Source of the DNA: an uncultured Planctomyces sp.
GTDB lineage: Bacteria > Planctomycetota > Planctomycetia > Planctomycetales > Planctomycetaceae
Assembly (NCBI GenBank): GCA_937904325.1
Contig: CALGTK010000034.1
Location: 1 to 56,979 of the forward strand
Length of the DNA: 56,979 nt
Direction: 5' to 3'
Part shown: positions 28,160 to 31,613 of the stretch, one piece after another
Layout of the letters: each line of letters begins with the position of its first letter
Numbering within the stretch: position 1 is the stretch's first letter
Notes under the pieces: model-generated
What the model saw: the letters and a program-made list of their open reading frames with translations, nothing else
What the model was told of the DNA's origin: nothing
Databases searched by the model: none
Made by a program: the position numbers and the translations under genes

Positions 28160-29710
28160 TTACCGGTATTTTCGTGGTTTCAGGACAAGTTGCCGCCGCG
28201 CTTCGCCTCCGTGAAGCTGCAACATCTCCGAAATCATTACATGCGCCGTGAACTTGCGAAAAAACTCGCTCCGCTTCATGTAAGCCTCAAGATCTCCACT
28301 GCGAAGTTGCCCGGTCAGTTCGAGATAGTCCGACAGCCGAGCAATCAGCCGGCGATCCGTCGCGTCGAACATACGAACGTACGCCATCAGTGGCTCGGTC
28401 GGCTCGAAGTCCGACGGTGCGACAACAACGTGCTCGTCATATACGAGCGCCGGAACGGTCGACTGCGGCACCGGCATCGGCGAAAGATTCATTTCTGGAT
28501 GCTGGATCGGAAACAGCGGAGTCTTCATTACTGGTGGTATTGCCGCTGGTGGAGATTGAGGTTTCACCTGGTCAGGCTGAGGTGGAACCTGTTGATCAAG
28601 GCCACGACGAACGTTGACACCATTCGACGCACCGGGAATGTGTCTGTTAAACGGATTCTCAATTGCTGGCTGAGCCACCGCCGGCGGCTGTGCTAAAGGA
28701 GCTGCATCCACTTGCGGAGCTTCTAGCTGTGGCACGGGCTTTGGGGAAACGTCGCTCAACGCTGTGCCAGGCACCGCTGGCTCTGTTGGAAGAATTGGCT
28801 GCGCGGTGAGCGGCGGAACAAAGTCGACAGGCGGAGTGGAATCCGCATTTTGCACAGGAATAATTTCATCGACAGGCGGTGCTTGAAACGGCTCGCTGGA
28901 CGTGGCGGATTTCTGATAATTGATTGGAATCGTCTGAGACTGCCACTCATCTTCCAAAGCCGTCTCTACCGGATCCGGCGATGGCAACGTTGGGAAAGTA
29001 GCATCGGCAACCGGTACGAGTAACGAAGTTCCGTCCGGCAGGAACGGCTGAAGCTGTGGCAGTTCGGCCTGAGCGAGCAACGTTTCAGCAATAGAAGCCG
29101 ACTGCTCGCCAACGGATTCCCAGCTGCCGTCTTCGACTACCAGGGCTGGATCAAATGGTGGTTGGGAATCGGCGGACAGCCACTCGCCAGAATCATCCGG
29201 CGATTGAGCTCGAGCGGTGTCGTACTTTGGTCGCCCCGGCCCTTTCACAGGTGCGTCAGCCGAGCGGTTGAAGAACGGAACGGTCGGGTCTTCATTCGGC
29301 AGAAACAGAAACTGCTGAGGTGAGTACCAGGCGACTTTCAAACCAATCCGAGGATTGTACGGGTCGTAGTCGGTGACCGCTCCAACGACGACGGCATCGA
29401 CGTCAAGAATCACGGCCAGTCGAACGGCATCGTGTGGACTAGTCAGCGAGATTCCGTTTTCAACCATCGCCCGCTCGGTCACTCCGACCGGCAGAACTTC
29501 GAAACCGGGAACCTTCTGCAGTTCGGAATAATAATCGAGGGCAAACTCACGCCCGTCGACCGTTCGTTCCTGGCTGAGATTGAAGAACGGAGCAATCGCG
29601 ACGGTCTCCAGGCCGACGACCGGATTCCGCATCCCGACCTCGACAATGGCACAGCCAGAGCCAGCCAGAGGCAGAGCGAGGCAGATTGTCAGGGCGAGAG
29701 CTCGAAACAT
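28160..29710 (-). CDS. Lipoprotein with CsgG/FlgT-like N-terminal domain and Pro-rich middle
   Basis: 516 residues. The N-terminus is a lipoprotein signal with lipobox LAGSGC (cysteine at residue 20). An alpha/beta domain follows (about 25-130: VAIAPFFNLSQERTVDGREF, a VLPVGVTERAM block and VVVGAVTDYDPYNPRIGL). It resembles CsgG/FlgT-type or LpoB-like outer-membrane lipoproteins that gather at the cell envelope. About 150-400 is a low-complexity Pro/Gln/Ala-rich linker. The last 100 residues form a conserved-looking helical domain (MAYVRMFDATDRRLIARLS and on to LKPRKYR). Function unknown; envelope anchoring is inferred from the lipobox. Same strand as the small gene and xerC, 246 bp upstream. 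Confidence 0.82.
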   Translation of the reverse strand: MFRALALTICLALPLAGSGCAIVEVGMRNPVVGLETVAIAPFFNLSQERTVDGREFALDYYSELQKVPGFEVLPVGVTERAMVENGISLTSPHDAVRLAVILDVDAVVVGAVTDYDPYNPRIGLKVAWYSPQQFLFLPNEDPTVPFFNRSADAPVKGPGRPKYDTARAQSPDDSGEWLSADSQPPFDPALVVEDGSWESVGEQSASIAETLLAQAELPQLQPFLPDGTSLLVPVADATFPTLPSPDPVETALEDEWQSQTIPINYQKSATSSEPFQAPPVDEIIPVQNADSTPPVDFVPPLTAQPILPTEPAVPGTALSDVSPKPVPQLEAPQVDAAPLAQPPAVAQPAIENPFNRHIPGASNGVNVRRGLDQQVPPQPDQVKPQSPPAAIPPVMKTPLFPIQHPEMNLSPMPVPQSTVPALVYDEHVVVAPSDFEPTEPLMAYVRMFDATDRRLIARLSDYLELTGQLRSGDLEAYMKRSEFFRKFTAHVMISEMLQLHGGEARRQLVLKPRKYR

Positions 29711-30036: not shown

Positions 30037-30909
30037 ATGCCAGACTGGGTTTCCATCGCCGAAGAATCAGCCGTCCCTGCCGACGCGGGGGCCACATTTT
30101 TCGTGGACGACATTGAAGTCGCCGTGTTTCGGTCCGAGGGCTATTTGTTTGCCATCGAGGGCAAGTGCCCCCACAAGGGAGCGTCCCTGGGTAATGGATC
30201 GATCGATGGCTGCGCGGTGGTGTGCCCGTGGCACGACTGGAAGTTCGATCTGAAGACAGGCGCAGGCCTGACAAATTCTTCGTCAGCCGTCGCCCCCATC
30301 GGGGTCCAGGTCACCGACGGTTCGATCGAAATCGATCGTGAAACTCTCCCCCTGAAAAACGCCGCCTCGGCAAACAGCGATGACGGCATCCATCGATACC
30401 TCGTCCGCTACGGATCGCTCGGCTGGGTCGGAGTCTTTGGCAACGTCGACAAAGTTGAATGTCAGCATCGTGACCGAGTCATCCTGCAGACTCACCGCGG
30501 TCAGGAGTTCGGCGAAGTGCTCTCCATTCCAGAAGACCTCGCCGCCCAAAACAACAGCGACAAGCCTGGTGGAGAAGTCGTCCGCGTAGCAACACCCGAC
30601 GAAGTGACGAAGCATGCACCTCGGTCAAAAAATCTCACGCTTCGCCTGATTGAAGAATGCAGCGCCGTCCTGGCCGAGTCTGACATCGACCTGGCCATCG
30701 TCGACGGCGAAGTCCTGTTCGACGATGAATCCGCAGTACTCTACTTCCTGGGCGACTCCAATCTCGACGCCGGCCCGCTCGTCACTGACATCGCCAAACT
30801 CCACAACCTGGAGCGCATCGAACTTTACCCATTCATCGATCCCCCCGAACCCGAGGGCGGAGGCGGCTGCGGCAAAGAGGGCTGCGGAGGCGGCGGTTGC
30901 CATTCCTGA
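30037..30909 (+). CDS. Rieske [2Fe-2S] domain fused to a PSP1 (RicT/YaaT-like) domain
   Basis: 290 residues with two recognisable domains. Residues 4-100 form a Rieske ferredoxin-type domain with both cluster motifs, CPHKG (C44, H46) and CPWHDW (C63, H66). Residues about 120-267 resemble the PSP1 C-terminal domain of RicT/YaaT: HRDRVILQTHRGQEFGEVL, a VVRVATPDE segment, DIDLAIVDGEVLFDDESAVL and a LERIELYPF end. PSP1 proteins of the Ric complex are tied to RNA maturation and Fe-S clusters in Bacillus. The C-terminus is glycine-rich with CX4CX4CH (C278, C283, C288). No signal peptide, so cytoplasmic. Divergent from the lipoprotein gene. The domain pair suggests a redox-sensing regulator, but this is inferred. 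Confidence 0.85.
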   Translation: MPDWVSIAEESAVPADAGATFFVDDIEVAVFRSEGYLFAIEGKCPHKGASLGNGSIDGCAVVCPWHDWKFDLKTGAGLTNSSSAVAPIGVQVTDGSIEIDRETLPLKNAASANSDDGIHRYLVRYGSLGWVGVFGNVDKVECQHRDRVILQTHRGQEFGEVLSIPEDLAAQNNSDKPGGEVVRVATPDEVTKHAPRSKNLTLRLIEECSAVLAESDIDLAIVDGEVLFDDESAVLYFLGDSNLDAGPLVTDIAKLHNLERIELYPFIDPPEPEGGGGCGKEGCGGGGCHS

Positions 30910-31211: not shown

Positions 31212-31613
31212 TCAGGAAACGTCATTGACCTCGAATTGCTCACGGCATTGGGGGCCGGTTGTGCTTGCGAAGACAATTAATCTGAAGTCGTTGATCCACT
31301 TGCCAGAAATAAACTCGACACTGCACACCGTGTATTCCCAATAGGGGATTTCCGGTGGCAGATCAGGTCCACGCTGATCAAATCGACAGGCGGTTGTCAG
31401 GAGTGGCCCTGGAAGACGGGCTTCGCCGCCATAACTGACGTCACCGGATGTTTCTGTGAAGATGAGCCCCGCTTCAATGAAGAACTCACGAATGGTCGAG
31501 GCACGGTCTTCGACAGCGGCAGGTGTCGCGAAAAGATCAACAAGTGCTCGGTAATCATCACTTGTCTGATAACTGAATTTCGGATTCAGATCACATCGAT
31601 GGACGAACCACAT
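31212..31613 (-). CDS. Hypothetical protein overlapping the aquaporin 3' end
   Basis: 133-residue product with ordinary protein composition (VHRCDLNPKFSYQTSDDY, then TIREFFIEAGLIFTETSG and SVEFISGKWINDFRLIVFAS). No signal peptide or membrane helix and no family I recognise. Its start overlaps the last 28 bp of the aquaporin gene on the same strand in another frame, which suggests translational coupling. Other in-frame starts are possible further in. There is no strong ribosome-binding site. It may be a true partner of the channel or a leftover gene. Confidence 0.55.
   Translation of the reverse strand: MWFVHRCDLNPKFSYQTSDDYRALVDLFATPAAVEDRASTIREFFIEAGLIFTETSGDVSYGGEARLPGPLLTTACRFDQRGPDLPPEIPYWEYTVCSVEFISGKWINDFRLIVFASTTGPQCREQFEVNDVS

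Follow-up and report, generated by a model that had tools for sequence, protein, structure and literature searches.

A Rieske ferredoxin domain fused to a RicT paralog in the Planctomycetaceae and its possible link to RNase Y

RicT assists RNase Y, an enzyme that cuts RNA. In Bacillus, RicT holds one [4Fe-4S] cluster through C161, C166, C198 and C203, and a second cluster is bound by C167 of RicT together with two RicF and one RicA C-terminal cysteine (PMC6751060). The authors of the Bacillus work have suggested a structural or signalling role for these iron-sulfur (Fe-S) clusters of the Ric complex (PMC10470536), and the complex is reported to target ribosomes (PMC13230545). RNA decay appears little studied in planctomycetes. 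In trypanosomatid proteins, PSP1 domains have been linked to mRNA binding, with the domain itself in doubt (PMC6907760). Here we describe a gene from an uncultured Planctomyces sp. (family Planctomycetaceae, class Planctomycetia) whose product joins a Rieske ferredoxin domain to a PSP1 domain of the RicT kind. The window analysed is the 56,979-nucleotide stretch formed by positions 1 to 56,979 of contig CALGTK010000034.1 (assembly GCA_937904325.1).

The fused protein and its Rieske half

The open reading frame at 30037-30909 on the forward strand is an intact gene of 290 codons that runs from ATG to stop. As modelled by AlphaFold2 (mean predicted local distance difference test score, pLDDT, 87.6), the product has two confident domains joined by a linker that is short and flexible, and its tail is predicted to be disordered. 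The parts are laid out as follows.

30037..30909, forward strand: whole gene, 290 amino acids; homologs share the start at MPDW
30037..30336, forward strand: Rieske ferredoxin-type domain, residues 1-100 (PF00355); pLDDT mostly >90
30166..30174, forward strand: first Rieske ligand pair, C44-x-H46, kept in all fused homologs read
30223..30234, forward strand: second Rieske ligand pair, C63-x2-H66, kept in all fused homologs read
30337..30387, forward strand: linker, residues 101-117; low pLDDT at 109-113, highest dN/dS (0.23), less constrained
30388..30846, forward strand: PSP1 domain of RicT-paralog type, residues 118-270 (PF04468, hhalign); pLDDT >90 over most of its length
30847..30906, forward strand: Gly/Cys tail, residues 271-290 (CX4CX4CH); predicted disordered, pLDDT <50

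Profile searches gave significant matches to both the Rieske and the PSP1 families. An initial annotation, made from the sequence, had described a complete Rieske site, a PSP1-like domain and a three-cysteine tail within 290 residues, and the Pfam matches, the ligands and the tail confirm all of this. Residues 4-77 match PF00355 (E 2.7e-17; 62.9 bits against a cut-off of 20.3), and the four Rieske ligands are complete (C44/H46 and C63/H66, in the arrangement C-x-H ... C-x2-H). The modelled fold aligns with the naphthalene dioxygenase ferredoxin 2qpz (VIA-align Z 18.8, root mean square deviation 1.3 Å, 102 residues), and the best matches of this half are dioxygenase ferredoxins and NirD. As in those proteins, the bc1-type disulfide cysteines are absent, which suggests a low redox potential for the Rieske half. 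The fused Rieske domains group separately from the free ferredoxins encoded in the genomes that carry them.

Near the fused domains in the Rieske tree lies the internal Rieske domain of a nitrite-reductase-like protein with a ferredoxin-reductase-like end (L196; G028:C55, ~212.7 kb). This position, together with the best matches to dioxygenase ferredoxins and NirD, would suit a fused protein that serves an oxygenase- or nitrite-reductase-type electron chain and uses its PSP1 half as a binding adaptor unrelated to RNA. We consider such a role very improbable: neither enzyme adjoins the gene or is conserved near the fused copies, and the PSP1 half follows the distribution of RicT and RNase Y (see below).

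Within the genus, five further genomes encode full-length homologs with 80-92% identity; fused homologs of 31-56% identity occur in 11 additional genera. When the matches of the family search are tallied together with genome G140, at least 45 genomes out of 170 in the family have the fused form; they belong to 12 genera, and some of them are complete chromosomes. A chimera of assembly or of a metagenome-assembled genome was ruled out because six genomes of the genus and single-contig genomes of another genus (g56) carry fused genes; the fusion is thus no artefact. Within the genus, the median ratio of nonsynonymous to synonymous substitution rates (dN/dS) is lowest in the tail (0.06), close to equal in the PSP1 (0.11) and Rieske (0.12) halves and highest in the linker (0.23), values which indicate that the fusion is under purifying selection. 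No fused match was found on plasmids; nor did one turn up beyond the family when 392 phylum genomes were searched at E 1e-20, a strict limit that very distant copies could escape.

A single origin of the fusion is not rejected by the Rieske tree (approximately unbiased test, p 0.503). The PSP1 tree needs four changes, with losses among them, and some of these come from rows cut by contig ends. One such row is L163 (G112:C263), which looks standalone although its genus otherwise has the fused form; its 5' end falls at the contig end, and therefore the Rieske half was probably just cut off. Literature searches combining PSP1 or YaaT with Rieske returned nothing relevant, which agrees with the earlier statement that no described system of this form was known. 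The Rieske-PSP1 architecture is real and conserved and, judging by the literature searched, apparently undescribed.

A RicT paralog with a cysteine tail

The PSP1 half was assigned from family profiles as well as from Pfam. PF04468 matches residues 180-263 with 34.4 bits (E 2.9e-8), above its gathering cut-off of 27. With family profiles the PSP1 region extends over residues ~118-265, and hhalign matches it to canonical RicT with a probability of 99.8 (E 1.3e-28). With the NCBIfam RicT model NF041131, the fused protein scores 45.8 bits and does not reach the cut-off of 70; it is therefore a PSP1-domain paralog of RicT and not RicT itself. The initial label of a RicT/YaaT-like PSP1 domain thus holds for the kinship with Ric proteins but not for identity with RicT. 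A canonical RicT is encoded elsewhere in the same genome (L120:1688-2641, G000:C51; 246 bits with the NCBIfam model), which would make the fused protein a second, paralogous subunit. This RicT has the intact six-cysteine signature CX4CCX30CX4CC, including C167, the Bacillus cluster-2 ligand, in a genome without RicA or RicF. The signature is incomplete in the fused protein, where only the first CX4C is in register and C167 and the second CX4CC are missing.

In the PSP1 tree, canonical RicT (Shimodaira-Hasegawa-like approximate likelihood ratio test support 99) separates from a paralog clade (99) that holds both fused and standalone forms. Besides a single canonical RicT, most genomes of the family encode one more PSP1 protein, as a rule standalone, ~180-200 amino acids long and with a Gly/Cys tail. 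We call the paralog RicT2; from the sequences compared, most RicT2 proteins are without a Rieske domain. Directly downstream of the standalone paralog, 16 loci (L074:2887-4050 and 15 similar ones) encode a family of 387-amino-acid proteins without a Pfam match.

A different known family was considered for the PSP1 half and rejected, since Foldseek matches were only weak and none had E <=0.001. The best of them is RbfA/KH-like (E 0.06, prob 0.99; VIA Z 8.4 over 79 residues), and no solved PSP1 or RicT structure was found by sequence search. This resemblance of the model, weak and not decisive, hints that the fold binds RNA; it is compatible with an RNA-binding role and with the reported ribosome targeting, and proves neither.

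The protein ends in CGKEGCGGGGCHS, with the tail motif C278-X4-C283-X4-C288-H289 (CX4CX4CH). Profile-profile alignment (hhalign, E 1.3e-28) places the first CX4C of the tail on C161-X4-C166 of RicT. In the family of the window, tails nearly always have three cysteines, and all seven two-cysteine tails carry a histidine; longer Cys-rich tails occur in all other families of the class that were read. Spacings vary (CX2CXC, CX4CXC, CX4CX4C, CX6CC). Judged by these sequences, the cysteine tail is a mark of the whole paralog family and is not unique to the fusion. The CX4CX4CH tail noted at the outset is present, as one form of a Cys tail that the standalone paralogs carry as well.

Such a tail might be a metal site (zinc or a soft metal) or a structural element, in which case the Rieske half would be an independent ferredoxin and fusion would give it only a location or a dosage partner. 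The highly variable spacing and predicted disorder of the tail speak for this explanation, whereas the register of the first CX4C with the RicT cluster ligands, the lowest dN/dS in the protein (0.06) and the persistence of the fused form across 12 genera speak against it. We regard it as quite unlikely.

One fused protein, L160 (G168:C24; genus g52), has a six-cysteine tail like that of the paralogs of family f5, and G060, the other member of that genus, has a standalone paralog. Transfer or deep paralogy is possible for L160.

Joint occurrence of RicT, RicT2 and RNase Y in Planctomycetia

RicA and RicF (Com_YlbF, PF06133) were found in none of 54 genome searches in the class (0/20 and 0/34), in which the B. 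subtilis controls were positive. The initial annotation had raised the question of whether genomes with the fused gene lack separate ricA and ricF. They do, but so does every genome of the class that was tested, fused or not. The fusion was therefore ruled out as an explanation for the loss of RicA and RicF.

RicT and its paralog were counted with a sensitive profile in 88 genomes of the class. RicT together with the paralog is present in 70, RicT only in 3 (all of one family), neither in 15 and the paralog only in 0. In this count, two matches in a genome were taken as one RicT and one paralog, an assumption checked by reading 50 paralog loci and the extents of the matches. A Fisher test of this co-occurrence gives 2.6e-14 (kinship ignored). 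RNase Y follows the same pattern, being present in 34 of the 35 genomes with RicT and the paralog and in 9 of the 18 without; its N-domain is also found in G000, the genome of the fused gene. Within family f2, RNase Y is present in 6/6 genomes with the pair vs 1/9 without it (p 0.0014, kinship ignored), and the pattern can differ within one genus (g33), where G587 has RicT, the paralog and RNase Y and G037 has none of these three.

In family f2, RicT, the tailed paralog and RNase Y are jointly present in G587, G576, G570, G557, G046 and G058 and jointly missing from G037, G052, G055, G559, G561, G564, G579 and G582. Outside the class, all but one of the PSP1-positive planctomycete genomes have just one PSP1 match. 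Thus, the duplication belongs to this class. A RicT/RicT2 pair with RNase Y and without RicA or RicF points to an RNase Y specificity complex that is built differently.

A possible redox input to RNase Y

Because planctomycete RicT retains all six cysteines despite missing RicA and RicF, and because the flexible paralog tail offers three or more Cys/His of the ligand-donor type that RicA and RicF supply, we propose a RicA/RicF-free module in which the paralog partners RicT and may complete a cluster. The domains, the paralogy, the motif register, the absence of RicA and RicF and the co-inheritance of RicT, RicT2 and RNase Y are read from the sequences; from them we infer a physical complex, a tail cluster, electron transfer and an effect on RNA processing. 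In this proposal, (i) RicT2 would act alongside RicT at RNase Y, (ii) the Cys/His of its tail would coordinate an Fe-S cluster, perhaps that shared in Bacillus by C167 of RicT and the RicF and RicA tails, and (iii) in lineages with the fusion, the Rieske domain would pass or withdraw one electron at that cluster, or report redox state. RNA processing would then respond to redox conditions. Tentatively, and at a little under an even chance, we take RicT2 to be a second RicT-type subunit of an RNase Y specificity module that in planctomycetes works without RicA and RicF, and to which the fused form would add, at its N-terminus, a Rieske [2Fe-2S] domain of low potential. Most genera of the class lack the Rieske domain, which would therefore modify the module rather than be essential to it. 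A bolder version seems doubtful, namely that the RicT paralog replaced RicA and RicF in Planctomycetia, its three-ligand tail completing the shared RicT cluster, and that the Rieske domain of one lineage turns the RNase Y complex into a one-electron redox switch.

The Rieske domain could also be a dedicated electron donor for the assembly or repair of an Fe-S cluster carried by RicT or by the tail, a non-regulatory part in the upkeep of an oxygen-sensitive RNA-processing factor. We think this unlikely. Its resemblance to a plain soluble ferredoxin would suit such a donor, but standalone RicT2 manages without a Rieske domain in most genera.

Several observations weigh against a redox-responsive RNase Y module of this kind. 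The genomes behind the co-occurrence counts share ancestry, and membership of the module rests on co-inheritance. RicT can function without the paralog, since many planctomycetes outside the class encode only one PSP1 protein; most RicT2 proteins have no Rieske domain, so redox input through it is no general need. The tail is predicted to be disordered and could bind zinc or nothing. The gene itself stands alone, and among the clusters shared between loci none points to RNA decay.

The neighbours of the gene, at 28160-29710 and 31212-31613, are both on the opposite strand, leaving it without a same-strand operon partner. The upstream one (28160-29710, reverse strand) encodes a 516-amino-acid, Pro-rich, lipoprotein-like protein without a Pfam match. 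Beyond the genus, the conserved neighbours belong only to protein families common in planctomycetes, and promoter, terminator and Rfam scans gave nothing useful.

A redox carrier fused to a RicT-type subunit is a natural variant in which the signalling idea for the Ric clusters becomes directly testable, and in these planctomycetes the redox state of the cell may thereby act directly on RNA processing. Among known systems, the aromatic dioxygenase ferredoxins (2qpz, 1fqt) and NirD have the fold and the C-x-H ... C-x2-H ligands in common with the fused Rieske domain; unlike them, it is joined to PSP1 and has no oxygenase or reductase partner nearby. RicT (YaaT) of B. subtilis, a subunit of the RicAFT (Y-) complex, shares with RicT2 the PSP1 domain, the first CX4C in register and the tracking of RNase Y. 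The fused protein differs from it in its N-terminal Rieske domain, in lacking C167 and the second CX4CC, and in coexisting with a canonical RicT where RicA and RicF are missing. The standalone RicT2-type proteins of Planctomycetia belong to the same paralog clade, carry the same Gly/Cys tail and occur once per genome beside RicT, but have no Rieske domain.
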